64,000 nucleotides of DNA, from NCBI RefSeq assembly GCF_000025965.1, contig NC_006823.1:1-64000 (forward strand), written 5' to 3'. Every line of letters begins with the position of its first letter. The first letter of the stretch is position 1. The position numbers were made by a program, and so were the translations under genes. Origin of the DNA: Aromatoleum aromaticum EbN1 (GTDB lineage Bacteria; Pseudomonadota; Gammaproteobacteria; Burkholderiales; Rhodocyclaceae). The notes below the pieces were generated by a model. It saw nothing but the letters and a program-made list of their open reading frames with translations, ran no database searches and had not been told where the DNA came from. This document shows, in pieces, positions 6,864-57,424 of the stretch.

Positions 6864-6922
6864 TTCGATCTCCATGTGAGGTTGGAACTGCACATAGGAG
6901 ATGTGCCCAGCCACCTCAGAAA
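6864..6922 (-). promoter_or_regulatory. Repeated promoter/RBS-hairpin element, copy 1
   Basis: TTTCT, 13 nt, ACATC; then arm CTCCTATGTG, loop starting CAGTTCCAACC, arm CACATGGAG containing the RBS. It drives the PcfJ-like gene and corrects its start. Confidence 0.85.
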
Positions 6923-7234
6923 AGCCTATCGAAACGAGAATTTCCGTCAAATCGAAGACCAAAAACAAAGCGACGCCCCAGAGAAGCTGACTCGGACCGG
7001 CCAAGAAACCTCCTTCCTCCTGCCCTGCCCATCAAAAAAAGGGCCGCCCTCCTTTCGCGCCTTGGGGGCACTTCAGGAGGGGCTGGATGCGATTCTTAGG
7101 CACTTCTGCTCCTGTGGTCGGACGCGGCCTTGCTCCGCGCCGAGGGGGCGCTTCGCAAGGGCAGGAAGTATTGCATTTGTGCGACCCATACCTGTTGCGC
7201 GCTGTGTGGCGCGCGCCAGAGCCGGAAGATTGCC
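6923..7234. other. Intergenic stretch without a convincing gene
   Basis: It lies between the PcfJ-like gene's promoter and the stop of the next gene. ORFs here are short and do not resemble proteins. A small hairpin (AGGGC/GCCCT, about 7036-7048) preceded by seven A on the plus strand could be a minus-strand terminator. Confidence 0.4.
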
Positions 7235-7690
7235 TTATTTGCCGGTTTTCCCATGGGATAAGCCCAAAAAGCTGTTTGGCAAAGGGGTGTTGCGGAGCTC
7301 GAGCGCACGGCGAGATTGCCTGCTTAGGTGAGGGATGCAATGACGGGTGAAAAGCGTTGCGTTACGGTAACGAGGGTGTAGCTGCGCCTCGGCACCACTG
7401 AGACCGACCGAGATGTGACAGCAAGAGGAGCACGCGTGCTTGCATCCGGCGTGGGATGAGATCGCGGCCGCGATCACATCCGCAAATCGTAAGATTCTCG
7501 CGAAGCGGCTCTTGAGCGAAGCGTTCTCGTTAGCGATCTGCAGGAGCTTGTCCTCGATCGTCAGAAAGTCTGGGTTGTCTTCCAGGATGCGCGAGAACGC
7601 ACGTTCGGCGATAGGCCCAACGGCTTTCTTCCTGTGCAGGTACTCCATCTTGCCGTGGAGCTGAACGGGCTGGTCGGTTGTGGACTCCAT
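7235..7690 (-). CDS. Putative cysteine-cluster (YkgJ-like) protein, possibly C-terminally altered
   Basis: This 151-residue protein starts at 7690 (MESTTDQPVQ), directly behind a repeated leader. Residues around 80-100 contain GCKHACSSCCHISVGLS, resembling the CxxxCxxCC cluster of YkgJ-type metal-binding proteins. After this motif the sequence becomes Arg-rich and loses family character, so the C-terminus may be truncated, frameshifted or fused to unrelated sequence. A CGTTACGGTAACG palindrome lies in this altered part (7360-7372). Confidence 0.6.
   Translation of the reverse strand: MESTTDQPVQLHGKMEYLHRKKAVGPIAERAFSRILEDNPDFLTIEDKLLQIANENASLKSRFARILRFADVIAAAISSHAGCKHACSSCCHISVGLSGAEAQLHPRYRNATLFTRHCIPHLSRQSRRALELRNTPLPNSFLGLSHGKTGK
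7360..7372. promoter_or_regulatory. CGTTACGGTAACG palindrome, site 1
   Basis: One of four 13-bp CGTTACSGTAACG palindromes in the window (others 19401, 22917, 43227). It is a candidate binding site for a dimeric plasmid protein; the protein is unknown. Confidence 0.45.
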
Positions 7691-7755
7691 GTCTGGATTC
7701 TCCTTGTGTGCGGGTTTGGACTGCAAGCAGGAGATGAGCAACAGCCCATGAGAAA
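7691..7755 (-). promoter_or_regulatory. Repeated promoter/RBS-hairpin element, copy 2
   Basis: TTTCT, 13 nt, TCATC; arm CTCCTGCTTG, loop CAGTCCAAACC, arm CACACAAGGAG. It drives the Cys-cluster gene at 7690. Confidence 0.85.
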
Positions 7756-7783
7756 ACCCCCGTGCCAGCAGGCGACGGGGGTT
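7753..7783 (-). terminator. Rho-independent terminator
   Basis: AACCCCCGT/ACGGGGGTT hairpin followed by U-rich RNA on the minus strand. It ends the 7796-8365 gene and abuts the next promoter. Confidence 0.85.
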
Positions 7784-7795
7784 AATGGGTAAGGA

Positions 7796-8365
7796 TCAGA
7801 GCAGGCAGTCGTCAGAAAGCTGCGACCTTCTGGCCACGCAAAGTTCGATCACGCGTTGGCAAGTTGCGACGTCGAAGGCGCCAAGGTGTGTTTCTTCGAC
7901 GCTCAGCCCTAGGGACTCAGCGAGCCAGGCGTAAGCCTTCCGCCGTGAAAGATCGCCTTTTTGCCAGAACGGGTCGAATGCTGCATGTGCGGCCCTGCGA
8001 GCGCGACGCGTCGGCTCATCGGCAAGCGTACCCTTTGGGCGCGTGCCGTTTCCCCAGCCGAGACCGGCCTTGTGCGTCCCAACATAGGCTTTGCAGTGAT
8101 CGCAAAGCCAGAAGTTGAGATCATGCAGGTCGGGGCGATGTGGGTAGATGACTTGGCCTGTCACCAGCATGGCACGCCGGCTGCAGTACGGGCAGGTCAC
8201 TGGCTGACGCTCCCAAGGCAAAAATTTAGCCTGTGGCTTGCTGTTCTTCGTTGCCTTCTTCTTGCTGTTTTGCTTCTGTTGAGCGGCGATCCGTTCTCGC
8301 ACACCCCGCTTCCACTTGGACGACTGATTGCATTTGGGGACAGGCTTCTTTTTCGTGCTGGTCAT
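7796..8365 (-). CDS. DUF3268-like zinc-finger protein
   Basis: The 189-residue protein has a Lys-rich N-terminus, then CPYCSRRAML and WLCDHCKAYVGTHK, two CxxC knuckles typical of a DUF3268-type zinc-ribbon domain. The later part (GTLADEPTRRARRAAHAAFDP, split here only for length) also fits that family. Such genes are found on phages and plasmids without known function. It has its own leader element and terminator. Confidence 0.75.
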   Translation of the reverse strand: MTSTKKKPVPKCNQSSKWKRGVRERIAAQQKQNSKKKATKNSKPQAKFLPWERQPVTCPYCSRRAMLVTGQVIYPHRPDLHDLNFWLCDHCKAYVGTHKAGLGWGNGTRPKGTLADEPTRRARRAAHAAFDPFWQKGDLSRRKAYAWLAESLGLSVEETHLGAFDVATCQRVIELCVARRSQLSDDCLL

Positions 8366-8423
8366 GGCACATCTCCTTGTTGGTTAGGACTGCACGGAGA
8401 GATGTGGCGAGGAGCATGTGAAC
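8366..8423 (-). promoter_or_regulatory. Repeated promoter/RBS-hairpin element, copy 3
   Basis: GTTCA, 13 nt, ACATC; CACATCTCTCC pairs with GGAGATGTG downstream of the loop CAGTCCTAACC. The RBS (AAGGAG) lies in the 3' arm of the gene at 8365. Confidence 0.85.
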
Positions 8424-8436
8424 TACCCAAAGGCCG

Positions 8437-8931: not shown

Positions 8932-9233
8932 TTACGGAAGTCCTCGATTGCATGGTCTCTTGCGGCCGACTCACGGATGTGGAGGCCGCGGCGACGTGCT
9001 GCGATTCGCTCAGCAACGCGCTGACGGGCAGCTGCACGGTCTTCAGCAAAGGTGGGAAACTGCATCAACAGTTGATGGCGCAGTTCTCGTTCTTCGGGCG
9101 TCATGAAATCGATGTCGGCACCACCGACGGCCCCTGCGAAGTCGGGCGCTGCGCCCAACCTTCGCTCACGTGCTATTGCGGTAAGTGCGTCGAGCTGGCT
9201 TCTGATCGGCGCAAGTTCGGGGGTGTTGGACAT
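8928..9233 (-). CDS. Hypothetical protein, first gene of a three-gene operon
   Basis: The 101-residue protein starts at 9233 (MSNTPELAPI), seven bases behind AAGGAG. The in-frame ATG two codons upstream is too close to the RBS. The sequence is Arg- and Ala-rich and mainly helical. It is preceded by a full leader element and followed by two overlapping small genes. Function unknown. Confidence 0.65.
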   Translation of the reverse strand: MSNTPELAPIRSQLDALTAIARERRLGAAPDFAGAVGGADIDFMTPEERELRHQLLMQFPTFAEDRAAARQRVAERIAARRRGLHIRESAARDHAIEDFRK

Positions 9234-9292
9234 GCTCATCTCCTTGTTGGGTTGTGCTGCAAGGAGAGAGATGTGCTCAGGGAGAAGCGAAA
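9234..9292 (-). promoter_or_regulatory. Repeated promoter/RBS-hairpin element, copy 4
   Basis: TTTCG, 13 nt, ACATC; arm CTCTCTCCTTG, loop CAGCACAACCC, arm CAAGGAGATGAG. It drives the operon starting at 9233. Confidence 0.88.
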
Positions 9293-9320
9293 AAAAATCG
9301 CCCTCGTGATGAGGGCGACG
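9290..9320 (-). terminator. Rho-independent terminator
   Basis: CGCCCTC/GAGGGCG hairpin with an eight-U tract on the minus strand. It ends the 9353-9944 operon. Confidence 0.88.
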
Positions 9321-9719: not shown

Positions 9720-9944
9720 TCAAGACAGGGTGCGAAGCACGGTCTGTGGTGCGATGCCGCGATTGATCATCAGACGGGACACAACACAGCGTTCTAAGGG
9801 CGTGAAATTGGCAGCCAGCAGGTGCGCGACCTCGATCTGTCCCTTTTCCACGTACTGAATGAGACGTGTCGTTGTGACCAGTACATCGTTGAAGTGGTGG
9901 GCCGGACGCAGACCTGCGCCGTCACCATTGATGAGGGTGAGCAC
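9720..9944 (-). CDS. Hypothetical small protein with GTG start
   Basis: The 74-residue protein starts at a GTG (9944), six bases after AAGGAG in the repeated leader. An upstream ATG in the same frame (9977) lies inside the leader hairpin and would translate it, so it is rejected. It is first of a two-gene unit ending at a strong terminator. Function unknown. Confidence 0.65.
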   Translation of the reverse strand: MLTLINGDGAGLRPAHHFNDVLVTTTRLIQYVEKGQIEVAHLLAANFTPLERCVVSRLMINRGIAPQTVLRTLS

Positions 9945-10006
9945 GATCTTCTCCTTGCGTGATGGGTTGAACTGCAAGGGAGAGATGCCCAGGCGGAGAA
10001 GGTAAA
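9945..10006 (-). promoter_or_regulatory. Repeated promoter/RBS-hairpin element, copy 5
   Basis: TTTAC, 13 nt, GCATC; arm CTCTCCCTTG, loop CAGTTCAACCC, arm GCAAGGAGA. It places the GTG start at 9944. Confidence 0.87.
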
Positions 10007-10081
10007 AGGCCGTAATTTCCTGGTGTCCAGATAAGCGCCTAGCAACGCGCAGACAAGCGGCTGTTTCTTTCTTCTGAAATG

Positions 10082-10136: not shown

Positions 10137-10541
10137 TCATCGGTAGAAGACGTGACTCCCGATCTGGGCGACCTGACTGAAGGTCGAAGCCCATCGTGGT
10201 GCGACGTAGTCGGCATGGTAGTGGGTAGCGCCGCCAACCACGTTCCGTCCTCTTCCTTGGAGTGTTCGGCGAGCGATCTTCTTCGCCAACTCCCATGCCT
10301 GTGCTTCTCTCGGCATGTAATTCTCTGCCCGAGCTCGACGAATCTCGGGGGTAGGCGCTTCAACCAAGGGGTTTGTCCACGAGAATTGCCGTGGCTTGAA
10401 CACGGTGTCACACACTTTGGCCGGATCATGCTCGGCCCGGTTCATCGTCACCTGGGCAACGGCCCATTGGCCGATCTCCGGTTCGCCCCTCGCCTCATGG
10501 TAGAGGTTCAGTGCAAGGCATGTGATTGCCATCTCGATCAT
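10137..10541 (-). CDS. SleB/CwlJ-like cell wall hydrolase
   Basis: The 134-residue protein matches the Hydrolase_2 (SleB-type) fold from its start: LALNLYHEARGEPEIGQ, VTMNRAEHDP and FKPRQFSWT are characteristic, with the Glu of HEARGE the presumed catalytic residue. It has no signal peptide. On phage-like or conjugative elements such enzymes locally open peptidoglycan; export would need another route. It has its own leader element and terminator. Confidence 0.85.
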   Translation of the reverse strand: MIEMAITCLALNLYHEARGEPEIGQWAVAQVTMNRAEHDPAKVCDTVFKPRQFSWTNPLVEAPTPEIRRARAENYMPREAQAWELAKKIARRTLQGRGRNVVGGATHYHADYVAPRWASTFSQVAQIGSHVFYR

Positions 10542-10599
10542 GTCGATCTCCTTGTGGGTTAGGTCTGCCCCGTGGAGATGGCTTTGCGAGAAATGTAAA
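10542..10599 (-). promoter_or_regulatory. Repeated promoter/RBS-hairpin element, copy 6
   Basis: TTTAC, 13 nt, CCATC; ATCTCCACGGGG pairs with CCCACAAGGAGAT around loop CAGACCTAA. It drives the hydrolase gene. Confidence 0.87.
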
Positions 10600-10625
10600 G
10601 CGTTACGAGCGTTCTGGCCGCGTAA

Positions 10626-11806: not shown

Positions 11807-12421
11807 TCAGGACTCAGGGCACTCGGACTTCAGTTCGCTGGCCAGTGCGCACATCGCGTTCTGCCAGGCTGCTTCGTACGAATCGAACACACTTTCGCTG
11901 GTTTCGACCTCAACCCAATCCTCACGGTAGAGCGACCACCAATACTTGCCTTCCAGTTCGGCGCCGTCGACTTCGTGCCCTCGGTGGACCCGATAGCCGA
12001 ACTCTGCAGCGGCTTTCCAGAATGGAGCTTCGCGCAAGCCCAACACTTCAAGCGTTGGGCGCCCTTGGCCAAGGAGAAGGTCGGTAATGCTATCGACGGC
12101 ATCGCCGCCACCGATCTCCTCATCGCGGTCGATCGCTTCTCCAAACTGGGTTTCTAGTGAGAGAACAACCTTCGCGGCCGAATCGAGCTTGATCAAATCC
12201 TGACGAAAATCGACAGAGCCAAGCTCGGTGAGCTCACTCTCGATCTGCTGGGCTTGTTGCTGCAGCGAGTGCAGAGACAGGCTGTGAGAGCTGGTCTGTC
12301 CATCATGCTCGATGATCTTGCGTTGCGCTTCGATAGCGGCATAGCAACTGGCGCGAAGGTCCAGCAAGTGCGTGTAGCGGATCAACCGCGTTGCGATGAT
12401 GGTGACGGGTTCTTGCTGCAT
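11807..12421 (-). CDS. Hypothetical protein
   Basis: The 204-residue protein has a helical N-terminal half with a Gln-rich stretch (SLQQQAQQIESEL) and a Trp- and Glu-rich C-terminal half. No family recognised. It starts behind a complete leader element, with AAGGAG eight bases before the ATG. Confidence 0.7.
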   Translation of the reverse strand: MQQEPVTIIATRLIRYTHLLDLRASCYAAIEAQRKIIEHDGQTSSHSLSLHSLQQQAQQIESELTELGSVDFRQDLIKLDSAAKVVLSLETQFGEAIDRDEEIGGGDAVDSITDLLLGQGRPTLEVLGLREAPFWKAAAEFGYRVHRGHEVDGAELEGKYWWSLYREDWVEVETSESVFDSYEAAWQNAMCALASELKSECPES

Positions 12422-12487
12422 GAGAATTCTCCTTGAAGGGTAGATGATTGAACTGCCCTGTGGAGATGCGCACCGGTTGATGCGAAT
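12422..12487 (-). promoter_or_regulatory. Repeated promoter/RBS-hairpin element, copy 7
   Basis: ATTCG, 13 nt, GCATC; arm CTCCACAGGG, loop CAGTTCAATC, arm CCCTTCAAGGAG. It drives the gene at 12421. Confidence 0.85.
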
Positions 12488-12579
12488 TGGCGTTACTGGA
12501 AGTCATAAAAGCAATTCAAGCGCGCTTAAATAGGCGAGCCGAAACGATCAGCTAATCGTCTAGTTCTCGCGCAAGCCAA

Positions 12580-12625: not shown

Positions 12626-13606
12626 TTACGCGGCAACAGAGATCGTGTCGATCGTCGTCACCTCGATAGGCGTCACCTTGAAGTAGGACTTCACGATGCC
12701 GTACACCTTGTTGATGCTCCAGTGCCAGCGTGCTTCCCCGGCAAAGCCCGTCGCGTTGGCGGGTACCACCAGGTAACCATCGTAGGCATCCATGTAGCCC
12801 GCGCCGTTGAGCACACCGTCGTGCAGACCGATGTGAACCTTGCCCTGGGCTGTGCTCCAGAACATCGGCTTGGTGCAATCGTGCTCGAAAAGCGCCCGCA
12901 CGTTGATCTGTGCGTGCGCCATCGGGACGGCCCAGGTGTAGCCGTTCTCGATGATTGACACCACCTCTTCGGGCGAAAGCACCGTTGGACGCTGAGGATC
13001 AGCTTCGACTTTCCAGCGCAGATCCGCGGTGTGCTCAACGAAAATCCGTCCCTCAGCGCCATGCGCCATGCAATACGCGCGAAGCGACTCACTCGAGCAG
13101 TTGCCCAGCTTGAGCAACTCGATCAACCAACGGCCAGGCTGCACCTCTTCGATGTAGTTCGAGTTATAGCGCTGGCTGCGCTGCCCGAACTCGTCCATCA
13201 GTTCATCGAGACTGACCCCGTTCCATCCCGGCACCCAGCACAACTCGCCATGCAGGCTGCTTGGGATGAGATCGAAAGCCCTTTCACGATTGGCCTGGAT
13301 GTAGGCCTGGTGCATCTTTTCCTGCACCTCGTAAGAGACACAATCAAAGGTCATCCCTTCCTGGCGTGCAGCCTCCAGGAACTCGGCTTCCCATCCCTCG
13401 CTGAGTTCGATCACCAGATCGATCAGGGCGTCACGGAAACGAGCGTTGTCCCATTTGCTCTCGACCTGCACCCGCTTGAGCGAGATCCATCCGGCGATGA
13501 GCTTGTCGGCCCACGCATCCGAGAAGTGATAATCGTCGGGGTAGATGCAATACGCGGGCAGTGCCTTTGCGGTTTCGATGTACTTGCGGTGTTTCTTGCT
13601 GTTCAT
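12626..13606 (-). CDS. Hypothetical protein
   Basis: The 326-residue soluble protein starts MNSKKHRKYIETAKAL. It is rich in Trp and acidic residues and shows no motif I recognise. It is a monocistronic unit with its own leader element and terminator. Confidence 0.7.
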   Translation of the reverse strand: MNSKKHRKYIETAKALPAYCIYPDDYHFSDAWADKLIAGWISLKRVQVESKWDNARFRDALIDLVIELSEGWEAEFLEAARQEGMTFDCVSYEVQEKMHQAYIQANRERAFDLIPSSLHGELCWVPGWNGVSLDELMDEFGQRSQRYNSNYIEEVQPGRWLIELLKLGNCSSESLRAYCMAHGAEGRIFVEHTADLRWKVEADPQRPTVLSPEEVVSIIENGYTWAVPMAHAQINVRALFEHDCTKPMFWSTAQGKVHIGLHDGVLNGAGYMDAYDGYLVVPANATGFAGEARWHWSINKVYGIVKSYFKVTPIEVTTIDTISVAA

Positions 13607-13671
13607 GGTGCTCTCCTTGTAGGCAATGGGTTAGTGCTGCCTGAAGGAGATGCACAGGGCGTGCTGAGAAT
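13607..13671 (-). promoter_or_regulatory. Repeated promoter/RBS-hairpin element, copy 8
   Basis: ATTCT, 13 nt, GCATC; arm CTCCTTCAGGCA, loop GCACTAACCCAT, arm TGCCTACAAGGAG. One of the clearest paired copies. Confidence 0.9.
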
Positions 13672-13820
13672 CTGGCGACGTTGTCTTAAAAGGGCGTGTT
13701 TTCTAGCGCGCAAAAGAGCGCGTACAAGCAAGCAAAAGCGCGGCGTTCTTCACAAAAGAAGCACCAAGCCAGCGCTCATTGACGTGCCACTCCTGGTGAC
13801 CTAGAGTTCTGCTCAACACG

Positions 13821-15975: not shown

Positions 15976-16244
15976 GCTTCGTCCTCCAGTTCCCAATTAA
16001 CCATGACGGTCTTGACAACCACGGCAGCCTGTTCAACCACGGCAGCGCAAATCAAGTTGTCTGCCCGCTCTTGGATCTGCGTGAAGATCCATAAATTCAG
16101 CTCGTCACGGCGTTTGATTTCGCCTTCCTCGATGAGTTGCTCCAACGTGGCATCATCAATGTCCCGACGTTGCATGCTTTCACGGGCATGATTTGTTACC
16201 CAGACATTCTTGCCAAACCTTTTGCTGAAAAAACTCGCCAACAT
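15972..16244 (-). CDS. DUF4258-like protein (toxin-like)
   Basis: The 90-residue protein starts at 16244 (MLASFFSKRF) with CAAGGAG at the right distance. VTNHARESMQRRDI followed by LEEGE-like spacing matches DUF4258, a small RelE/HigB-like fold. It overlaps the DUF2283-like gene. It lies downstream of a truncated copy of the repeated leader (16331-16377), suggesting the pair replaced the leader's original gene. Confidence 0.78.
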   Translation of the reverse strand: MLASFFSKRFGKNVWVTNHARESMQRRDIDDATLEQLIEEGEIKRRDELNLWIFTQIQERADNLICAAVVEQAAVVVKTVMVNWELEDEA

Positions 16245-16330
16245 AATCTCCTTGAGAAGAGAGTAGGGACCCAAAACTTAGAGGTCAAGCATCGCGGCTG
16301 CCTCCGGCTCGCCCGAATGGACAGATGGAG

Positions 16331-16377
16331 GAAGGGTTAGGCTTGCCTGAAGGAGATACCGTCTGCGTGATGGGAAA
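16331..16377 (-). promoter_or_regulatory. Truncated promoter/leader element, copy 9 (orphan)
   Basis: TTTCC, 13 nt, GTATC, then CTCCTTCAGGC and GCCTAACCC are present, but the RBS-containing 3' arm and start codon are missing. The sequence diverges after CTAACCC. Confidence 0.75.
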
Positions 16378-16399
16378 AAACGGCGAAGCAACAACCCGA

Positions 16400-30103: not shown

Positions 30104-30105
30104 GA

Positions 30106-42066: not shown

Positions 42067-42090
42067 CCGATCCAAGTGGCGCCATACGTG

Positions 42091-44573: not shown

Positions 44574-44628
44574 ATCCTTTCTCCTTGGTTAGAACTGCAC
44601 TGAGCTATGCCGCCTGAACCTTGAGAAA
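44574..44628 (-). promoter_or_regulatory. Repeated promoter/RBS-hairpin element, copy 20
   Basis: TTTCT, 13 nt, GCATA; arm CTCAGTG, loop CAGTTCTAAC, arm CAAGGAG. No terminator precedes it; the promoter boxes start next to the upstream gene's stop. Confidence 0.82.
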
Positions 44629-44629
44629 A

Positions 44630-45022
44630 TCAGGGCACGTACTGGCGCTGCTGAACGACGTCAACGAGCTTGGGTACAACGCCATCCTCATCGAAAACGA
44701 AAACGAATCCGGGTAGTGCATATCGCCCACCATGGATCGGACTCGTTCGCAGTGCAGCGCTGGCCAACCTGTTGAGCCAAGGCAAGAAGGACTCTCTCGG
44801 CTTCCGAGTCCGCTGCCACGAAGCCTTGTGATAGCGCTCAAGCCTCGAGAGTACCTTCGGCTCGATCAGCACGTCGCTTTGCAACGCCATGCGCCGTTGC
44901 ATCTCCTGCTCCGCCAGCTCTGCCTTGGTGTGCTTCTCAAGCACCATCCAACGCAGGTACCAATAAGGCAGTTCTGCGTAGTGCCGCCCCTTGAATTTTC
45001 CAAAAGTAACGACTGATGACAT
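44630..45022 (-). CDS. DUF3820-like protein
   Basis: The 130-residue protein starts MSSVVTFGKFKGRHYAEL; TFGKFKGRHYAELPYWYLRW resembles the short DUF3820 motif (FGKyKGk..ldlP..YL.W). The remainder is basic. Function unknown. Confidence 0.7.
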   Translation of the reverse strand: MSSVVTFGKFKGRHYAELPYWYLRWMVLEKHTKAELAEQEMQRRMALQSDVLIEPKVLSRLERYHKASWQRTRKPRESFLPWLNRLASAALRTSPIHGGRYALPGFVFVFDEDGVVPKLVDVVQQRQYVP

Positions 45023-45082
45023 GACCGATTACCTCCTTGTGGTTGATGTGCAAGGGGGAAATGCGAAGCACGGGCAGGGAAA
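45023..45082 (-). promoter_or_regulatory. Repeated promoter/RBS-hairpin element, copy 21
   Basis: TTTCC, 13 nt, GCATT; ATTTCCCCCTTG pairs with CAAGGAGGTAAT around loop CACATCAACCA. The loop has CAC instead of CAG. Confidence 0.87.
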
Positions 45083-45090
45083 ACGGGCAC

Positions 45091-45140: not shown

Positions 45141-46133
45141 TCACTTCACAGGGGCGTATCGAGCAGAGACGATCTTCTCGATGGCTTCCCGCTCAGCTTC
45201 CGGTGATCGCGCCGTAACAGCGGCGTGGAGGGCTCCGTTTAGGCAAGCCAACACCTCTTCCGTTGCACCTCGAGCACTGGCATCCGCAAGCGAACGACCA
45301 TTCGCCAGCAACATCTTTCCCCAGCGGATGAGGCCGCGGGTCGAGATGGTAGTGGTCATTTCGCCCTGCTTGAAGGCTTCCCGAACGTCCCCAGCCACCT
45401 CAACGAGGAGTTGGATGAAAGGACCGGCAAGATGTTTGCACTTCGCGTGCAGGATCTTGCTTTCCTCCATCGGTGACAGGTAGTCCACCGTCCCGACGAG
45501 GAAGCGGTCAAGCAGCGCGATGCTCTGCCGCTGGATGCCCCGGTAGTTAGCTGCATCCATGTCGTGCGCCACAGCGTTTGCCGTGAATGCAACCCGAAAA
45601 TCCTGGTGCGGCTGAACCATTTCACCCGTTTCAGGCACCAAAAGCGGCGCCCCATCCAGGATCGTATTCAAGCCACCGACTACGGCTGGATGAAGGAAGT
45701 TGCCTTCATCCAGAAGCAGGATACCCCCTACCTTCATGGCTGCCAGTAGCGGGCCGTCAGCCCACTTCCACTCTTGGCCGCCACCAGGTACGGATGCCAT
45801 GCGCCAGGCGCCGACAAGTTCCTGAAACTCCATTCGCCCGTGGCAAGCCACACGAAAGAGCGGCCACCCCGTACGAGCCGCGAAGACCTCGACCATCGAA
45901 GACTTCCCAGATCCAGTGGGGCCGGTCAACATCAGATTCTTGCTCACCCCGGCCCAGACCCATGCCACTAGCAGACGTGCATGAGCTTCGGTGAAGCTGT
46001 GGGACGGGTTGTCTGGGGGCGTAAACGGCCCCGCTGACCTTACAGGAACTGCCCTTTGAGCCGCCTGGGGGTCCTTGAAGGCAGACCCAAAGATGTTGCC
46101 AAGCTTCTCGGTTACGGCTGTCGTTTGTGACAT
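45141..46133 (-). CDS. MoxR/CobS-like AAA+ ATPase
   Basis: The 330-residue ATPase starts at 46133 (MSQTTAVTEKLGNIFG). Walker A TGPTGSGKSS at 70-79, Walker B ILLLDEGNFL at 138-147, sensor-type FTANAV further on. MoxR/CobS-like ATPases work with VWA proteins as chaperones or metal chelatases; a VWA partner is encoded at 46771. The longer frame to 46247 crosses the leader and is rejected. Confidence 0.9.
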   Translation of the reverse strand: MSQTTAVTEKLGNIFGSAFKDPQAAQRAVPVRSAGPFTPPDNPSHSFTEAHARLLVAWVWAGVSKNLMLTGPTGSGKSSMVEVFAARTGWPLFRVACHGRMEFQELVGAWRMASVPGGGQEWKWADGPLLAAMKVGGILLLDEGNFLHPAVVGGLNTILDGAPLLVPETGEMVQPHQDFRVAFTANAVAHDMDAANYRGIQRQSIALLDRFLVGTVDYLSPMEESKILHAKCKHLAGPFIQLLVEVAGDVREAFKQGEMTTTISTRGLIRWGKMLLANGRSLADASARGATEEVLACLNGALHAAVTARSPEAEREAIEKIVSARYAPVK

Positions 46134-46189
46134 TTGAATCTCCTTGTGTTTAGGGCTGCAAGGAGAGATGGCAAGAAGGCGAAGTGAAA
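46134..46189 (-). promoter_or_regulatory. Repeated promoter/RBS-hairpin element, copy 22
   Basis: TTTCA, 13 nt, CCATC; arm CTCTCCTTG, loop CAGCCCTAAACA, arm CAAGGAGAT. It drives the AAA+ gene. Confidence 0.9.
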
Positions 46190-46203
46190 ACTGAACGTAC
46201 GCG

Positions 46204-46256: not shown

Positions 46257-46676
46257 TCAGTGCAAGCTCCTGGTGATAGGCTCACCAGTGCGACCGCTCC
46301 TCATCACTGCAGGAAGCAATGATGCTTGAGGAGCAACAACCGGCTCGATCTTCCGTTGGCTCTTACGGGCCTTGGAAGCGATCGGTTTCTCATGAGCACG
46401 CTGAAGCTGCTCAAGAGCGAGAGCAAGCTTCTTGCTCTCTTCTTCCGCGCGTTTTACAACGCGCTCAAGCTCGGCGATACGCCTTTCATCTGCTGAAGGA
46501 GCCTCGCGACGATTAGCTGTCGGCTGGCGCTTCTCTTTGTCTCCGTCAAGGTTCCTCCGAAGAGCTTGCTGCAGCTCGCGAAGCTGAGCACGCTTCCTGT
46601 CTCGGCGCGACGTCATGAAAAGACGAAGCGACAAGAGCGCGAGGGCACCGATGACTACAAAACTGAGTAATGACAC
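46257..46676 (-). CDS. Membrane-anchored coiled-coil protein
   Basis: The 139-residue protein starts at GTG 46676 (MSLLSFVVIGALALLSLRLF), placed eight bases after AAGGAG in the leader. There is one N-terminal transmembrane helix, then a basic linker and a coiled coil (RIAELERVVKRAEEESKKL). It lies between the AAA+ and VWA genes and may anchor that complex; this is inference. Confidence 0.7.
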   Translation of the reverse strand: MSLLSFVVIGALALLSLRLFMTSRRDRKRAQLRELQQALRRNLDGDKEKRQPTANRREAPSADERRIAELERVVKRAEEESKKLALALEQLQRAHEKPIASKARKSQRKIEPVVAPQASLLPAVMRSGRTGEPITRSLH

Positions 46677-46731
46677 GTCAATCTCCTTGGGTTAGGTCTG
46701 CCCTCAGAGATGTGCCTAGCACAGTGATAAA
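46677..46731 (-). promoter_or_regulatory. Repeated promoter/RBS-hairpin element, copy 23
   Basis: TTTAT, 13 nt, ACATC; ATCTCTGAGGG pairs with CCCAAGGAGAT around loop CAGACCTAA. It places the GTG start at 46676. Confidence 0.88.
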
Positions 46732-46763
46732 AAAGGGCCCAAGCGATTGCGCTTGAGCCCTTG
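46729..46763 (-). terminator. Rho-independent terminator
   Basis: AAGGGCTCAAGCG/CGCTTGGGCCCTT-type stem with a six-U tract on the minus strand. It ends the VWA gene. Confidence 0.87.
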
Positions 46764-46770: not shown

Positions 46771-48684
46771 TCAGCCTACCGCTTTCGCGACAGCACCAAA
46801 GACCGCTTGCGAAAGCCGGTCTGCACTCATTGCCCGGTCAAAGGCAACCTCCTCCTCCTTGAGCATCGCCTCGAGAGCATGGCCCATGGACCCGATGAAC
46901 ACCACCGCGATCTGGATTCCGTTCTGGCGGGCAAACCTGCACCCAGCCATCAGAGAATCGTGATCGTTGGGCTCGCCATCGGTGACGACGACCAGAATGC
47001 GTTTTTCCTCCTCACGAGCCGTGATGCGGATGAGTGCTTCCTCAACCGCATCGCCCGTGGCCGTGTCACCCGACGAACCATCATCCCACCGGTGCGCCGA
47101 CAGCGGCTCATCAAACTCCTTCAGCACGCACACGTGATTGGCGAACGCGATCGAGAGGAAAGGGACCTCGTAGGTCGACAGCACGGAAGCGAGCGCAAAG
47201 TGCGTCTCATAGGCCGCTTCTTGTGCGGTTGTTTGGCCCGCGGTTGTCCTGGAACTACCGTCGGTCAGCGGCATTGTTGTCCACATCGATCCCGAGTAGT
47301 CGACCAGAAGGGCGACGGCAGTATTGGTGCCTTCAGTTTCTTCCTTCTTCCGGAAAACCTTCAAGTCACCACGCGCAAGCCTCTCCGGTGCACTGTGAGA
47401 GAGCTTACGCCCCGAGTACCCATCCCACGAGGAATCTTCGACCGTGGACTCGATCAGGCTTCCAAGCCGGGTGCCAAGCTTTGCCTTGAGCTCGTGCCGT
47501 TTCAGATAAGCCCTGACCTGACCGTGGTCTTTGATACCGGTGGTACGGGTTGCATGTTGCGACCGAGCACCGGCCCCCATGACCTGGCTGGCCCCCATCT
47601 GCTGACGCAACATATCTTCCATGCTGACCGAGCCGACAGACTGTGCAGTGAGTGCTTGACGCATCGCTGCGGCCTGCTCGCCTGCGGAGCCTTCTTCATC
47701 CCCCTGCGACGAAAACTCGCCAGTTTCAGCGCCTCCTTCATCTGACACGTCAGACTCAGAACTCCCGTCTTCACTCTGAGATGACTCAGGGGCAGAAGGA
47801 TCATCTTCGCCCTGATCGTCCGACAAAGCCCCCGACGACGCATCTTCTTCATCCTCACCACCGGAAGCAGCAGACTCAGAAGCATCGCCCTCATCCTCGC
47901 CACCGTAACCGGCGGGCTGAGAGGCATCCCCCTCATCTTCATCCTGCCCTGCCTGCGACGATTTCTGCGACTCATCCTCCTCGTCATCTTGCGATGCCTT
48001 GGATTGCTGTTGCTGCTTCTGCCGTTGCTGCTCTTCCTGCCTTTCCTTCTCTTCAGCAGAAGTCTCGAGGAGCTCGTAGACCTCCCAAGCCAAGCTAGAA
48101 GCCTCGTCCGTGGACGTTATGGCTGCAGACCGGTCGGCAAGCGCGAAAACGTCCTCGACCAGGTCGGTACCAAACACCTCCTCGGCGAGAGTCCGCCACT
48201 GGCCAGCCATTTCATCTAAGCAGTGCTGCCTCAGGTGCCTACTGCGAAGCCCCATCACAAGCGCCCTGCACAAGATGTCGGCCGGCTGATACTCCTCGTC
48301 TTGCTGTGGAGCCTCAAGGATGCCACGCACTGCGAGACCGCTGGCCGCATCGAAGAGCATTCGAGCCGCCCCGGGGAAGATCCTGGCCAATGCCAACTCG
48401 ATCCGTATGTCCTCGAACACGTTATCGAGGGCGCGAACAAGGACGTTCCCTTTCGAGCTATCCTTGAACTCGGTAAAGCGGCAGTGCGCCGCCTCATGCG
48501 CGACCAGCCCGTACAGAAGGATCATGTCCTCCTCTGAGCCAGTCGTTGCGAGGTTGGGTAGATAGATCACCTTGCCCGTCGTCGCTGCTGTTTTGATGTT
48601 GCCGAAGACGACCTGGACGCCGAAGCGACGCCCCAACATGGTTGCGACGAGGCGAAGCGCCTCCTTACGGTTCTGCTTGAGCAT
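46771..48684 (-). CDS. CobT-like VWA protein
   Basis: The 637-residue protein starts at 48684 (MLKQNRKEALRLVATM). An N-terminal CobT-like region includes HEAAH (zinc-peptidase-like) near residue 58; the centre is a very long Asp/Glu/Ser-rich stretch; the C-terminal VWA domain carries the MIDAS motif DYSGSMW near residue 462 and VVTDGEPNDHD. It is the expected partner of the AAA+ protein at 45141. Confidence 0.9.
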   Translation of the reverse strand: MLKQNRKEALRLVATMLGRRFGVQVVFGNIKTAATTGKVIYLPNLATTGSEEDMILLYGLVAHEAAHCRFTEFKDSSKGNVLVRALDNVFEDIRIELALARIFPGAARMLFDAASGLAVRGILEAPQQDEEYQPADILCRALVMGLRSRHLRQHCLDEMAGQWRTLAEEVFGTDLVEDVFALADRSAAITSTDEASSLAWEVYELLETSAEEKERQEEQQRQKQQQQSKASQDDEEDESQKSSQAGQDEDEGDASQPAGYGGEDEGDASESAASGGEDEEDASSGALSDDQGEDDPSAPESSQSEDGSSESDVSDEGGAETGEFSSQGDEEGSAGEQAAAMRQALTAQSVGSVSMEDMLRQQMGASQVMGAGARSQHATRTTGIKDHGQVRAYLKRHELKAKLGTRLGSLIESTVEDSSWDGYSGRKLSHSAPERLARGDLKVFRKKEETEGTNTAVALLVDYSGSMWTTMPLTDGSSRTTAGQTTAQEAAYETHFALASVLSTYEVPFLSIAFANHVCVLKEFDEPLSAHRWDDGSSGDTATGDAVEEALIRITAREEEKRILVVVTDGEPNDHDSLMAGCRFARQNGIQIAVVFIGSMGHALEAMLKEEEVAFDRAMSADRLSQAVFGAVAKAVG

Positions 48685-48741
48685 TTCAGACTCCTGTAGG
48701 TTAAGGCTGCAGGAGCGAGATGCGGTGAGCGTTCTATGAAG
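48685..48741 (-). promoter_or_regulatory. Repeated promoter/RBS-hairpin element, copy 24
   Basis: CTTCA, 13 nt, GCATC; arm GCTCCTG, loop CAGCCTTAACCTA, arm CAGGAGT. The promoter boxes overlap the end of the upstream 48734 gene. Confidence 0.85.
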
Positions 48742-49231
48742 GCAACTCGAGACGAGCCGCCAAGTTAATCGCGTCTTCGACAGTCGCAACGATGGCAGTC
48801 GTACACGTAGCCAGCATCAGGTTCACAGGAAAGCCAAAGTTTTCGATCACAGCCCCATCCGAGCATGTCAACAACCCATCTTCATTACAAAGATGGGTAG
48901 CCGGATCAATTCTCAACATCATTGGTCGGCGATCCTGACATACCCCAATCACAGGGATACCAGAACTCCAGGCAAGACCGCATTCGAAAGCAGTTCCAGA
49001 ATCCGGCTCGACTGAGCTTCTAAACGGATTCAAGTTAGCGATTAGCAAGTGGGCTTCTCGTATTTTTGCTACATTCTCTCTAAAAATAACCTTCGAATCG
49101 CTAATTTCATCGTCACCTGGGAAAAGAGGGTAAATATCTCGCGCCTCGCACATCCTCCTTATGGCGTCTTTCTTACCCTGGTAGCACCCGAAGAACAAAT
49201 CGGGTCCGGCAAAATAGACTAGCTTGCGCAT
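48734..49231 (-). CDS. Nucleoside 2-deoxyribosyltransferase-like protein
   Basis: The 165-residue protein starts at 49231 (MRKLVYFAGPDLFF) with GGAGG upstream, overlapping the HD gene by 13 bp. YFAGPDLFF, LLIANLNPFRSS and EPDSGTAFECGLAWSSG are the family's substrate and catalytic motifs. Such enzymes exchange bases between deoxynucleosides; related folds occur in nucleotide-signalling defence. The substrate is not predictable. Confidence 0.87.
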   Translation of the reverse strand: MRKLVYFAGPDLFFGCYQGKKDAIRRMCEARDIYPLFPGDDEISDSKVIFRENVAKIREAHLLIANLNPFRSSVEPDSGTAFECGLAWSSGIPVIGVCQDRRPMMLRIDPATHLCNEDGLLTCSDGAVIENFGFPVNLMLATCTTAIVATVEDAINLAARLELPS

Positions 49232-53401: not shown

Positions 53402-54406
53402 CTAGAACCAAGCTTCCTCTGCTGCACTCTGAAGCATTGCATCAGCGATTTCAGTCTCAGCCTCTGTCGTTCGCTTCGTAGAAGCTTTTGCCGCAGGAGC
53501 CTTCTTCTGCAAAGTGATCTTGAATCGCTCAGAGTCATCCTTGCGGAACTGCTCAGCAAGCATAACGAGATCGATGCCGTGGTGCTCCTTCACGCTCTCG
53601 AAAAGCGCGCCGTAATCCACCGCTCCCTTGCTTGAGTACTTGGTGGCGACGATGCCGCAACCTTCGTACGACGACTCTCCATTAGCTGCAAGAAGGTTCT
53701 CGATGTCTTTTGCACGCGCATCGAGGGTTTCTTTTGCCATGTCGTACTCAAGCTTCGCTTGACGCCATGCACTTGCTGCATCGATCCAAGCATCGGTCGC
53801 AGGGATGTCATCGTTGATGACAGCCTCCCTGAAAGTCTTTGCTTCAGCGTACAAACGCTGCTGCTCCAGCGGATCAGACTGCACGGGGATCTTGATCCCC
53901 TTCCCCGCCCAATAGACCCAGAAGTCCATCGAGAGGATCTCGCCATTCGATGCAAACATCTGCCACTGCATCTGGGCGAGATAGTAAGCAGGGATTTCAC
54001 CGGCTTGCGCGGAAACCCATAGCTTCGGCGCATCCCCGTAGCGGGAGTATGGGCACTTGATCTCAACGGCTTTTGTGCCCGTCAAGGTCAAACCATCGAG
54101 ACTGGCAGCAACCCACGGAATGCCATCATGTTCGATGCAGCACGGCTGGGCATAATCGCCATGATCCTGAATCCAGGCAGCCAAAGCCTCATCTTCCGTC
54201 TCTACGCCATGCGCCATAGCAGGGTTCATCTTGTCTGGCTCCCTGCGGCCGGTCATCTCTTCCCACAACTGATACCTCGACTTGAAGGGCGAGATGCCGG
54301 CGATCACGGCGATGTTGCTTGCAGTGATTCGCGGGCCGTCAATGTCCTTTCCTGCCCTCCAGTCGTGCCACTCCTGGCTACGCTGGTCGAGTTTAACGAT
54401 CTTCAT
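53402..54406 (-). CDS. YqaJ-type (lambda-exonuclease-like) recombinase nuclease ending EEAWF
   Basis: The 334-residue protein starts MKIVKLDQRSQEWHDW. RITASNIAVIAGISPF, AHGVETED (His66, Glu69), SLDGLTLTG (Asp104), VEIKCP (Glu115, Lys117) and YYLAQMQWQMFAS are the YqaJ nuclease motifs. Such enzymes resect ends for single-strand annealing with an SSB or annealase partner. It ends SAAEEAWF. Confidence 0.92.
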   Translation of the reverse strand: MKIVKLDQRSQEWHDWRAGKDIDGPRITASNIAVIAGISPFKSRYQLWEEMTGRREPDKMNPAMAHGVETEDEALAAWIQDHGDYAQPCCIEHDGIPWVAASLDGLTLTGTKAVEIKCPYSRYGDAPKLWVSAQAGEIPAYYLAQMQWQMFASNGEILSMDFWVYWAGKGIKIPVQSDPLEQQRLYAEAKTFREAVINDDIPATDAWIDAASAWRQAKLEYDMAKETLDARAKDIENLLAANGESSYEGCGIVATKYSSKGAVDYGALFESVKEHHGIDLVMLAEQFRKDDSERFKITLQKKAPAAKASTKRTTEAETEIADAMLQSAAEEAWF

Positions 54407-54468
54407 AACGATTTCCTCCTATTAAGGTCAGTGATGCGGGGAGGAAATGCGGGTACTAAAGGAAGAAA
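54407..54468 (-). promoter_or_regulatory. Repeated promoter/RBS-hairpin element, copy 25
   Basis: TTTCT, 13 nt, GCATT; ATTTCCTCC pairs with GGAGGAAAT downstream of loop CATCACTGACC. A compensatory change from the usual ATCTCC/GGAGAT. Confidence 0.88.
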
Positions 54469-54482
54469 ACGTGCGGGAGGCG

Positions 54483-55001: not shown

Positions 55002-55538
55002 TTACATCGGAAGTGAATCAGCAGCAACTTGCTGCTTTGCACCACCTTGGCGTTCAGCCTTCTCTTCACCAGTCTGAAGACTGATGAACTTCTCGCCTTG
55101 GGGACGCTCTTTGCCGGCGCCAACTTCGCGAACGAAGCCGGAAAGCCAGACTTTGCGGCCGCCGCCGACCTCAAGGTCGCCGTTGTAATACGGCACGTCG
55201 GAGTCAGACACTGCCTTGTTGCGCGCCTTCTCGAGACGCTCCTTCGCTTTCGATCGTTCCTCTTCAGTCATCTTGAAAAGGGTTCCACGAAGCCCGCCTG
55301 CGACCGAAATAATGTAGCGGCCGTCATGGACGGCACACTCAATCGGCAAGCGCCCAAAGGCCCCGGGACTATAGGACCCGTCCTGCTGCCTTACGTCCTG
55401 AGCCGACAAATGTCCAGCCAGAACAACAGCGGCTTTGACACCCTTGCCGACAGGGATCTCGCGGGCTTTGGATTTCTCCTCAGCAGTGAGGGTGAACATG
55501 GCGCCCTGAAGGGCCGAAGTGATGGTGATGATGCTCAT
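55002..55538 (-). CDS. Hypothetical protein
   Basis: The 178-residue protein starts MSIITITSALQGAMFTL. An internal repeat is visible: ALQGAMFTLTAEEKSKARE near the start and GLRGTLFKMTEEERSKAKE in the middle. The C-terminus is Gln- and Lys-rich. Function unknown; position suggests the recombination set. Confidence 0.7.
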   Translation of the reverse strand: MSIITITSALQGAMFTLTAEEKSKAREIPVGKGVKAAVVLAGHLSAQDVRQQDGSYSPGAFGRLPIECAVHDGRYIISVAGGLRGTLFKMTEEERSKAKERLEKARNKAVSDSDVPYYNGDLEVGGGRKVWLSGFVREVGAGKERPQGEKFISLQTGEEKAERQGGAKQQVAADSLPM

Positions 55539-55598
55539 AATCTTCTCCTAGTAGGTAGTTGGACTGCACGAGTGAGATGCAGTCCGTCGATTGGTAAA
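55539..55598 (-). promoter_or_regulatory. Repeated promoter/RBS-hairpin element, copy 26
   Basis: TTTAC, 13 nt, GCATC; TCTCACTCGTG, loop CAGTCCAACTACC, arm CTACTAGGAGA. It drives the gene at 55538. Confidence 0.84.
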
Positions 55599-55661
55599 AA
55601 TTGAATTTCACATGCAACGCTGCATGAACCTACTTCAATCCTATCAGAATGTACAACCGAG

Positions 55662-55925
55662 CTAGGCGCCTTCAAGGTTTTGCTCTTTCGAGAGCTCATC
55701 CATCAGCTGCTGCTTACGAGTCAGCAGCCACTCCTGAACGCCTTTCTCCAGGCGCACGGCAGCCGCGCCCCCCCTGTACCTCTTGATGAGCTCGAAAGTC
55801 GATACCCACCATGCCTGAACATCCACTTGTCCCTCGTTTTTGAGACGAAGCGCCTTCTTTGCCCACGACTTGCACTCGCAGACGTGCCTGAATTCTTCCG
55901 AATAGGTGTCGCTCTTGCTTTCCAT
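55662..55925 (-). CDS. Small basic hypothetical protein
   Basis: The 87-residue protein starts at 55925 (MESKSDTYSEEFRHVC). The longer frame to 56267 crosses the leader and the neighbouring gene. It is helical and rich in Lys/Arg. Function unknown. Confidence 0.66.
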   Translation of the reverse strand: MESKSDTYSEEFRHVCECKSWAKKALRLKNEGQVDVQAWWVSTFELIKRYRGGAAAVRLEKGVQEWLLTRKQQLMDELSKEQNLEGA

Positions 55926-55978
55926 TTCTCGCTCCTGTTGAGACTGCACAGGAGAGATGGCGAAGGCCAGTAATGAAA
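55926..55978 (-). promoter_or_regulatory. Repeated promoter/RBS-hairpin element, copy 27
   Basis: TTTCA, 13 nt, CCATC; arm CTCTCCTGTG, loop CAGTCTCAA, arm CAGGAGCGAG. CCTG/CAGG replaces CTTG/CAAG. Confidence 0.87.
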
Positions 55979-56015
55979 AAACCCGCCGCTCACAATGTGG
56001 TTTGTGAGGGCGGGC
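55975..56015 (-). terminator. Rho-independent terminator
   Basis: CCGCCGCTCACA/TGTGAGGGCGG-type stem with a six-U tract on the minus strand. It ends the primase-KTSC operon. Confidence 0.88.
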
Positions 56016-56025
56016 GATTGGGGCG

Positions 56026-56355
56026 CTAGAACCAGGCTTCGGACACAGCATCTTCTGGCAGCACGTAGTCATCTGCCGTGTACTGAATGACTGATGACTC
56101 ATCCAGGTTCCGCAATGTGGAAAAGGAAATTTCCGCCTCGGTGCCAGCATAGTTCGAGCGGATGTTCTCGCTGAAGTACTTCCCCCTGCTGGAGGACTTC
56201 TTCCATGCGGCCCATACGTTTTGGGATACACCGTCGTAGACATAGCCGCCGCCGATTGAGAACACAACGCCCAGTCTTTGCTTGAGGACGTCGTAGCCGG
56301 CAGTGGCTACCGAGCTCGAGGCCATCTTGTAGCCCTTGCTGAACTTCACCTTCAT
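56026..56355 (-). CDS. KTSC-domain-like protein ending SEAWF
   Basis: The 109-residue protein starts MKVKFSKGYKMASSSV; its ATG overlaps the primase stop (ATGA). VATAGYDVLKQRLGVVF, GGGYVYDGVSQNV and SRGKYFSENIRSNY fit the KTSC domain, a small domain of unknown function common in phage-like genes. It ends EDAVSEAWF, like the exonuclease. Confidence 0.8.
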   Translation of the reverse strand: MKVKFSKGYKMASSSVATAGYDVLKQRLGVVFSIGGGYVYDGVSQNVWAAWKKSSSRGKYFSENIRSNYAGTEAEISFSTLRNLDESSVIQYTADDYVLPEDAVSEAWF

Positions 56356-57362
56356 GCCACCCTCCGTCGCAACGAAGCCAGCAGCACGTCATTGATATCT
56401 CCGTCCTTAGGGCAATCGACCCATGCACGAATCCCCTCAGACTGAAGTTCACTTGATAGGTCTGCTGCTGCAGCCTGACCCGGCCCATCAGGATCGAACT
56501 TGATGATTACAGTCCGATCTGCAAGGAGCGGGTTCCATGCATGGTTCCACTGCCGACAACCTGGAACAGCAATCACCTCGTCCTCATACCCCATTGCCAC
56601 AAGTGACAGCAGGTCTATCAGACCTTCCACCAGCGCAACCGTACCCTTGCCTTCGTTCCACCGCCACGGCATGAGCACGCTTCCATGTCGCAACGCTTTT
56701 GGCCCGTATGACTCACCAGGGAGGCGACGGAACTCAACTGCATCATTACCGGGAAACCCGAACAGGATCGGCCGATAGACGATGGCAGGGAGCTTCTTTT
56801 CCGGACTAAGCAACCCGCTTGCCAACAACAGTTTAATTCCGACAGTGCGAGCCACTTGGCTTGCTGCGATACCCACATCGGACGAGAGCATCCGGAGATA
56901 CCCTTTATCGTGAGCCTGCCTCAACAGCGGCAATGGCAGTCCTCGCTCCTGTGTGAGGTAAGTGACTACGTTGTAGTCCCAGTACCCAACCTGAGCATCC
57001 AGTAGCTTCTGCATTGCCTCAGCAACCAAGCCAGCGTCCGGAGACGAAGGAATGGCCGCTCTCCTACTATGGCGAAACGGGACAACAACCCGTGCGTCTC
57101 CGGCAAGCTTAGCTGCTGCTTCCTTGTGAGAGCAGCGGTGGTACAAAGCCGCTGCCTCAATCACATCTCCATGTGACCCACACGCGAAGCACCGAAAAAA
57201 CTCTCCTTTCCCAGAAAGAGTCGTCTTTCTGGAATCGTGCTCACTTGGACCGCAGTGAGGGCAGCTGGACCAGCGAGGCCCAGTTCTTGTCTCCACCGGC
57301 TCCCCTAGTATTGATGCCAAGAACGACGACAGCGGAACTTGCTTCCTGACTTCTTCGTACAT
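56352..57362 (-). CDS. DnaG-type primase with CHC2 zinc finger and TOPRIM
   Basis: The 336-residue protein starts MYEEVRKQVPLSSFL. Zinc-finger residues Cys34, Cys37, Cys58 and Cys61 (SCPHCGPS; FRCFACGSHGD) match CHC2. The TOPRIM region has VALVEGLIDLLSLV and IIKFDPDGPGQAAA. It is shorter than chromosomal DnaG and lacks a helicase-binding domain, as in phage/plasmid primases. It is cotranscribed with the KTSC gene. Confidence 0.9.
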   Translation of the reverse strand: MYEEVRKQVPLSSFLASILGEPVETRTGPRWSSCPHCGPSEHDSRKTTLSGKGEFFRCFACGSHGDVIEAAALYHRCSHKEAAAKLAGDARVVVPFRHSRRAAIPSSPDAGLVAEAMQKLLDAQVGYWDYNVVTYLTQERGLPLPLLRQAHDKGYLRMLSSDVGIAASQVARTVGIKLLLASGLLSPEKKLPAIVYRPILFGFPGNDAVEFRRLPGESYGPKALRHGSVLMPWRWNEGKGTVALVEGLIDLLSLVAMGYEDEVIAVPGCRQWNHAWNPLLADRTVIIKFDPDGPGQAAAADLSSELQSEGIRAWVDCPKDGDINDVLLASLRRRVA

Positions 57363-57424
57363 GTTTCATCTCCTTATTCAGGCGTTGATCTGCACGAAGG
57401 TAATGCGACCTCAACGATAAGAAC
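57363..57424 (-). promoter_or_regulatory. Repeated promoter/RBS-hairpin element, copy 28
   Basis: GTTCT, 13 nt, GCATT; loop CAGATCAACGCC. CCTT can pair with AAGG; the stem is weaker than average. It drives the primase operon. Confidence 0.8.

Follow-up and report, generated by a model that had tools for sequence, protein, structure and literature searches.

A repeated leader on a plasmid of Aromatoleum aromaticum EbN1 as a candidate promoter with a built-in lock on the ribosome-binding site

On a plasmid of Aromatoleum aromaticum EbN1, dozens of genes are preceded by a similar leader in which an upstream arm faces the ribosome-binding site (RBS), and this raises the question of what such a leader does in front of so many different genes. 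We have analyzed a window of 64,000 nucleotides (nt), positions 1-64000 of the 207,355-base contig NC_006823.1 (C2), in a genome of 4.73 Mb in three contigs; leaders are named by their C2 position, and the numbering of the window is identical. C2 looks like a conjugative plasmid: it encodes F-type TraN and TraH for transfer, as well as a PRTRC cassette with ThiF, ParB and F proteins. An initial sequence-only reading had described a hairpin that hides the RBS behind a GCATC-like box, and had suggested translational control through a binder of its loop. The RBS-facing hairpin is confirmed, in a set of leaders larger than that reading had it. As to its role, we favor, with a probability of about 0.5, a promoter used across the plasmid that also locks read-through transcripts against translation.

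Two regular expressions picked out 26 leaders in the window on the basis of box, CAG, Shine-Dalgarno sequence (SD) and start codon, with no use of pairing or of sequence upstream of the box. A weight matrix trained on 30 C2 leaders was then run across the whole of C2, followed by inspection of SD and open reading frame (ORF), which yielded a total of 38 leaders; the window has 29, of which 27 lie on the minus and two on the plus strand. Leaders 16358- and 111368- were retained only after their arm pairing had been noticed. All nine arm pairings named by the sequence-only reading were recovered on the minus strand, close to where it had placed them.

The matching of the arms was assessed by pairing each 5' arm with the 3' arms of other leaders, a swap that keeps both the CTCC/GGAG core and the base composition. 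For the 38 C2 leaders, own arms paired at -10.25 kcal/mol versus -8.34 +/- 0.27 kcal/mol for swapped ones (z = -7.0, 0/50,000), and the corresponding value for 55 non-redundant leaders of C2 and a related plasmid described below was z = -7.9 (0/50,000). Full folding of 26 leaders gave -9.74 versus -7.82 +/- 0.36 kcal/mol (0/20,000 permutations). The advantage of own arms stays when only the variable halves are compared, with GGAG trimmed to its first G (z = -4.1, 2/20,000), and when near-duplicates are removed, leaving 19 of the 38 leaders (z = -4.4, 1/20,000). The claim that variable parts of the arms change together is thus borne out by the swap, while a fixed-column analysis of 26 leaders with MAFFT and RNAalifold found no pairs; as the register of the helix slides, this latter test is unsuitable here. 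The arms are also able to hide the RBS, as had been proposed: in 33 of the 38 leaders the SD is computed to pair with the upstream arm below -5 kcal/mol, and pairing is nearly absent (above -5 kcal/mol) in the remaining five, C2 127043, 57405, 44609, 42994 and 31534.

The spacing of the elements around the hairpin is rigid. In 30 of 30 leaders, selected regardless of this feature, the two bases of a TT lie exactly 18 and 17 positions before CAT, usually within TTTT followed by C or A (a count of 76/76 leaders is partly circular, as the matrix includes TT, and 30/30 is the unbiased figure). In the same 30 leaders, the spacing from CAT to CA(G) is 13 in most (24), with four leaders at 12 and two at 14, the base preceding CA(G) is G in every one, and no conservation was seen further upstream than the TTTT element. 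Counting this G as +1, CATCTC comes to lie at -12 to -7 and TTTT(C/A) at -32 to -28. The pattern TTTTM-N15-CATYNC-N6-GCAG has 16 matches in the 4.73-Mb genome, all of them on C2 and all of them leaders, and the reversed control pattern matches once in the whole genome. A box, a TTTT(C/A) at rigid distance and a G before CAG make up the geometry of a promoter that starts inside the hairpin. The GCATC box and TTTT(C/A) thus look like a bipartite, promoter-like element with its start point within the hairpin, and a start at that point would leave the gene's own transcript without the 5' arm. Note that only about 20 base pairs separate the TT elements of the back-to-back modules 111368- and 111424+, which limits the upstream extent of any such promoter.

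In the mechanism that we propose, TTTT(C/A) (-32 to -28) and (G)CAT(C/T)TC(C) (-13 to -6) would be the promoter elements, and transcription would begin at the G of GCAG or right next to it. The 5' arm (ATCTCC..T, about -11 to -1, sometimes to +1/+2) would then be essentially absent from the mRNA made from a gene's own promoter, and the SD would be open. Transcripts entering from upstream would include the arm, whose pairing with AAGGAG(AT) would keep them untranslated, with the tail of the arm tuned for each gene. Together with the intrinsic terminators that abut some of them, the modules would insulate about 38 plasmid genes, whose products would appear only upon initiation at their own promoters by a factor specific to the plasmid. 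The transcription start, the initiation factor and the silencing in cells are what we infer here from the sequence. That all this amounts to a private expression system, in which an initiation factor of a new kind, encoded by the plasmid, reads a promoter pattern absent from the chromosome whose -10 element is at the same time the anti-SD, and of which other lineages have their own versions, is a tentative and somewhat doubtful extension.

Folding predicts the effect that such a lock would need. The probability that GGAG is unpaired is 0.36 for transcripts from +1 versus 0.15 with the arm included (p = 5e-6), and for 61 other C2 ORFs with a GGAG it is 0.37 and remains at 0.36 upon an extension of equal length (p = 0.64). 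By our criterion, terminators abut 13 of the 38 C2 modules.

A scan of a collection of species genomes with the promoter-plus-leader pattern revealed a second carrier, JALHFX010000001.1 (C86), of 160,584 bases and with seven exact matches. This contig, nearly identical to C2 over large parts, is filed under a Propionibacterium metagenome-assembled genome, a placement that is most likely a binning error. It carries 38 leaders by our listing, and 35 pairs of ortholog leaders could be compared with C2, with cores identical in 21 and differing in 14; both arm windows differ in seven of these 14. Own arms clearly beat crossed ones in 27346/91114 (CTCCCGA/TCGGGAG versus TCTCCCT/AGGGAGA) and in 41238/77287 (CTTCGTG/CACG versus CTTCAGTG/CACTG), and slightly so in the pair of 33437. 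The compensatory change that the sequence-only reading had put forward is therefore clear in two of seven pairs and slight in one, whereas three are neutral and one points the opposite way. Over the 14 differing pairs the rate of change is zero at -18 to -16 relative to CAT and about 2% in CAT itself, but 33% in the spacer and 39% at -40 to -21, and this divergence reads as the footprint of two elements around a neutral spacer.

These data bear on the simple notion that only a promoter and an SD are selected, and that their complementarity is a by-product of a CTCC-type -10 element facing GGAG. The consensus box ATCTCC is indeed the exact complement of GGAGAT, and swapped arms still pair and lower the accessibility of the SD. 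The swap test disfavors this notion nevertheless, both over all arms and over their variable halves, and the two ortholog pairs 27346/91114 and 41238/77287 altered both arms yet still pair, so that we hold a mere by-product to be most improbable.

The main rival of a promoter with a lock is a switch in the gene's own mRNA: transcription would start upstream of CATCTCC, leaving the RBS locked unless acted upon, and binding of a plasmid-encoded protein, a small RNA or a ligand to CAGNNY..AACC would open or stabilize the hairpin in all members of the set. In its favor, matched arms do flank a partly conserved loop. CAG, with which the loop had been said to start, stands 12-14 nt from CAT in 32 of 38 leaders and is absent from there in 27346, 127043, 111368, 54449, 45063 and 16358; an A is found at +7 of CAG in 29 of 30 leaders but AA, in the same register, in 19 of 30, and the distance from CAG to GGAG varies from 11 to 23 nt. 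AACC, reported as usually in the loop, pairs with the G-rich arm in 46712, 10580, 187685 and, as judged by eye, 201179. With AACC in the stem of these few leaders and CAG persisting in several where the hairpin hardly forms, the pattern appears to suit a promoter or initially transcribed sequence no less than it does a ligand-binding loop. Of the loop-gated hairpin in the own mRNA, the RBS-hiding arms stand, but the geometry of box, TTTT and G would put the 5' arm outside that mRNA. A start upstream of the box is further at odds with the lack of a conserved element above TTTT, where orthologs diverge by 39%, and the rigid spacing from CAT to GCAG is unexpected given a helix register that slides. 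We regard this switch as a real possibility, albeit not the one we would expect.

Several observations also weigh against the promoter with a built-in lock. Own and crossed arms are level in the ortholog pairs of 111424, 45063 and 34610, crossed arms beat own ones in that of 130103, and the pairing of 111424 is partly lost in the related plasmid (-8.9 versus -13.2 kcal/mol). CAG is missing from its usual place in the six of 38 leaders listed above. Swapped arms lower the predicted SD accessibility as well (0.19 versus 0.15 with own arms, p = 0.12), and as this difference is not significant most of the predicted effect is due to the box itself. Arm strength is independent of an upstream terminator (13 modules with, 25 without, p = 0.75), and at least one strong hairpin, that of 27346+, stands behind a divergent gene. 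Regarding a factor that might use the element, no member of the sigma-70 family (Sigma70_r2) was found on C2, all six matches in the genome being on C1, and no FlhC-type activator was found in the genome; a search for a T7-type RNA polymerase gave no reader, but ran without a positive control. The GC-rich -10 element differs from common sigma-70 elements. Lastly, arm duplexes are more stable in the antisense than in the sense reading, and G-U pairs are no richer in the sense (21/432 pairs) than in the antisense reading (45/462); given this G-U count, the pairing data alone do not prove a coding-strand RNA.

Pairing at least as good on the antisense strand would also suit a hairpin promoter in single-stranded DNA, active during conjugative entry, and F-type transfer genes are present on the contig. 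As modules lie on both strands, even back to back in the case of 111368- and 111424+, one transferred strand cannot serve all of them, and the TTTT element is located outside the hairpin. We consider such a promoter highly improbable.

Among 297 genomes of the family, the strict leader pattern was found in that of EbN1 only. Viral contigs gave isolated matches only, without leader context, and three other loci of the species collection gave one match each and no convincing context; of the stray loci, L032 and L033 are without leader context and L034 has one lone hairpin-like site before an ORF. On three PRTRC-type or VWA-bearing plasmids (L046, L047 and L049) the arm swap gave z = 0.1, -0.2 and 0.5 for 27, 16 and 30 genes with an SD, and L047 has one matrix match, of 13.7, before its VWA gene.

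Other plasmids do carry repeated leaders of other types. On the Cupriavidus malaysiensis plasmid NZ_CP017756.1, the motif GGCAATG(C/T)(C/G)A.. precedes the SD of eight genes at 44736-61207 on the minus strand, and in six of the eight leaders CAT is found seven bases ahead of it. Orthologs for DUF4942, VWA, AAA and DUF3150 proteins carry leaders both there and on C2. The DUF4942 leader pairs CTCC.TCAGG with CCTGA.GGAG, and at least two leaders pair the SD strongly (-14.6 and -12.4 kcal/mol), while a blind arm swap over the listed genes reached z = -2.05 only. In comparison with C2, consensus and spacing are different and the TTTT element is kept only in part, and several of these leaders have an internal GCCCG/CGGGC hairpin, unlike those of C2. 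Sites of the Cupriavidus form in 38 viral contigs, one in each, were rejected as coding sequence or chance matches, 29 of the 38 lying in an open frame on the strand of the match and none, by eye, having leader context.

A second class is present on DUF4942-bearing plasmids of Polaromonas, Methylomonas, Comamonas and Simplicispira (L086, L087, L089 and L091), where AACCC..GGGG hairpins are followed by an arm that pairs with the SD and with the sequence from there to the start codon, with arms specific for each gene. For 49 genes picked by eye (11/17, 12/17, 8/20 and 18/25), with windows set after looking, the arm swap gave z = -10.3 (-2.3, -5.2, -3.9 and -5.5 per plasmid); a blind swap with all listed SD genes and other windows gave no consistent signal (z = 1.3, -2.0, 1.2 and -0.8). 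On a Burkholderia contaminans plasmid (L088, 14968-26515), at least five genes have leaders of the form CTCTCC..GCCC..GGGCAA..CTGGAGA with an inverted repeat upstream, as seen by eye, and 10 chosen genes gave z = -2.0 in the swap. That SD-sequestering, gene-specific leaders are repeated on other plasmids, in class 2 as in the DUF3085 RNA considered next, is a further point for a switch in the own mRNA.

No Rfam family matches the C2 leaders. At the gathering score, Rfam 15 has no match in the window, and no leader hairpin is hit by any of the 12 sub-threshold matches at E <= 10, three of which (30061-30125, 30064-30104 and 46725-46807) lie at terminators adjoining modules. One leader scanned alone gave a 13-bit microRNA match on the opposite strand (E 2.1). 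Among the titles listed in literature searches, mostly outside subscription journals, none is on the C2 leader.

The closest comparison in Rfam is with the DUF3085 RNA (RF02959), reportedly described in a survey, which like the C2 leaders is a cis-regulatory leader repeated on plasmid-like contigs. It exceeds its cut-off 15 times in the bin of the related plasmid, with 14 copies on the contigs C125 and C181, all of these on one strand; of 10 copies inspected, nine continue as CAACCC..GGG and the tenth as CTACCC..GGG, in the manner of class-2 leaders. Repeated leaders on plasmids are thus already a known kind, of which the C2 type appears to be a form without Rfam match. The C2 leaders could be members or remote relatives of such a known RNA. 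Class-2 leaders exceed no Rfam cut-off and are DUF3085-like at best, two of them scoring 27.7 and 27.3 bits versus a cut-off of 40.6, and CAACC motifs recur in class-2 and Cupriavidus leaders. RF02959 matches at E <= 1 also in five of 14 control genomes, however, so that weak scores mean little, and in the EbN1 genome, where 150 of 558 first-look candidates were scored, it has no match at E <= 1 and none in the window. The DUF3085 RNA is moreover a multi-stem structure of 76 positions, in contrast to the single hairpin over a promoter-like element on C2, where most leaders are without a second hairpin, and kinship seems unlikely.

A promoter combined with a lock has a precedent in phage T4, whose late promoter motif is TATAAATA. 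Two reports describe RBS-sequestering hairpins for T4 gene e, soc, 49, I-TevI and segB and for Aeh1 mobE, with a late promoter inside the hairpin in the case of gene e and I-TevI (PMC3014915, PMC2988022). In the gene e type, the hairpin folds only in transcripts from upstream, and we propose the same for the C2 modules. A putative start downstream of the 5' strand, as in T4, would fit the geometry and the footprint on C2. The phage hairpins belong to separate genes with T4 late promoters, whereas on C2 they would serve some 38 genes of a single plasmid and combine a bipartite element with a -10 that is the anti-SD.

The 29 modules of the window are of the general form TTTTC..CATCTCC..GCAG..SD..ATG; they lie on the minus strand unless noted otherwise, and several of the genes are labeled by their Pfam domain. 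The first, at 6861..6923, precedes a PcfJ-domain gene (4983-6863) and pairs CTCCTATGTG/CACATGGAG. It is followed by 7688..7756 (gene 7235-7690; CTCC..TTG/CAA..GGAG), 8363..8424 (DUF3268 zinc-finger gene, 7796-8365), 9231..9293 (gene 8928-9233; CTCCTTG/CAAGGAG) and 9942..10007, ahead of a 74-codon ORF with a GTG start at 9944. At 10539..10600, before a cell-wall hydrolase gene (10137-10541), the G-run of the arm pairs with AACCC. AGGG/CCCT and CTCC/GGAG pair at 12419..12488 (gene 11807-12421), and CTCCTTCAGGC/GCCTACAAGGAG at 13604..13672 (gene 12626-13606). The module at 16242..16378 has a loop of about 90 nt between TATCTCCTT and AAGGAGATT.

Both plus-strand modules come next: 27326..27386, with CTCCCGA/TCGGGAG in place of which the ortholog has TCTCCCT/AGGGAGA, and with no CAG at the usual place, and 28750..28812, with CTCCTT/AAGGAG. 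Back on the minus strand, 30009..30069 (gene 29649-30011) and 31494..31554 (DUF3150 gene, 30546-31496; weak arm pairing) both stand immediately 3' of a terminator, intrinsic in the former case. The arms are CCTCCT/AGGAGG at 33395..33457 (PAPS-reductase-domain gene, 31598-33397), CTCTATG/CATGGAG at 34572..34630 (PRTRC ThiF gene, 33783-34574) and CTCCCGGTTG/CAACCAGGAG at 39706..39767 (PRTRC ParB gene, 38035-39708). Pairing is of the TTCCT/AGGAG type only, and AACC is absent, at 40442..40510 (ORF 39824-40444). At 41191..41258 (gene 40552-41193), CTCCTTCGTG/CACGTAAGGAG is matched in the ortholog by CTTCAGTG/CACTG.AGG, and at 42006..42067 (ORF 41700-42008) CCTGC pairs with GCAGG. The arms hardly pair at 42951..43014, immediately 3' of a terminator (gene 42447-42953), and at 44571..44629 (78-codon ORF with its start at 44573).

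CAC replaces CAG at 45020..45083 (gene 44630-45022), where CCTTG pairs with CAAGG. A MoxR-type AAA gene (45141-46133) has CTCCTTG/CAAGGAG at 46131..46190, gene 46257-46676 has GGG/CCC plus ATCTCT/AGGAGAT at 46674..46732, and a CobT/VWA gene (46771-48684) has CTCCTG/CAGGAG at 48682..48742. The YqaJ nuclease gene (53402-54406) is preceded by 54404..54469, with TTTCCTCC/GGAGGAAA and CAT in the place of CAG. Pairing is partial at 55536..55599 (gene 55002-55538), CTCCTG/CAGGAG at 55923..55979 (87-codon ORF, 55662-55925) and CCTT/AAGG only at 57360..57425, before a primase-like gene (56352-57362) that is divergent from a gene for a LuxR-type autoinducer-binding regulator (57493-58308). The latter lies beside this last module, with no evidence for a role here.

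Candidates dropped from the first regular-expression list were five plus-strand rows and the minus-strand rows 54297, 53061, 29564 and 27023; those dropped from the second were 46722+, 56918-, 41972- and 8233- (no box), and those from another candidate list 52454+, 128010+ and 202452+. Matrix matches rejected for an implausible gene or leader include C2 29563-, 77121+, 51095-, 65444+ and 148083+. Of these, 29563-, with a score of 19.0, a 54-codon ORF, TT present and CAG absent, occurs in the related plasmid too. The GC content is about 70% at 1-4000 and 18001-20000 of the window, and 50-61% in most other 2-kb blocks; ORFs in the two regions have no counterparts or counterparts of low identity in the related plasmid, and the regions are possibly inserted segments.

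In a private expression system of the kind outlined above, any gene behind a module would be translationally silent in RNA that is driven by the host or arises by read-through, and would need RNA started by the plasmid's factor to be active. If the proposed mechanism is true, the choice of the start site would be coupled to translation throughout a regulon. While silencing of read-through RNA by RBS hairpins is known for a number of separate phage genes, the C2 module would serve dozens of plasmid genes at once. The finding would offer an explanation for the silence of genes on a large plasmid under foreign transcription, and would point to an undiscovered initiation factor. Given the leaders of other types on related plasmids, repeated leaders that differ by lineage may be widespread among such plasmids.

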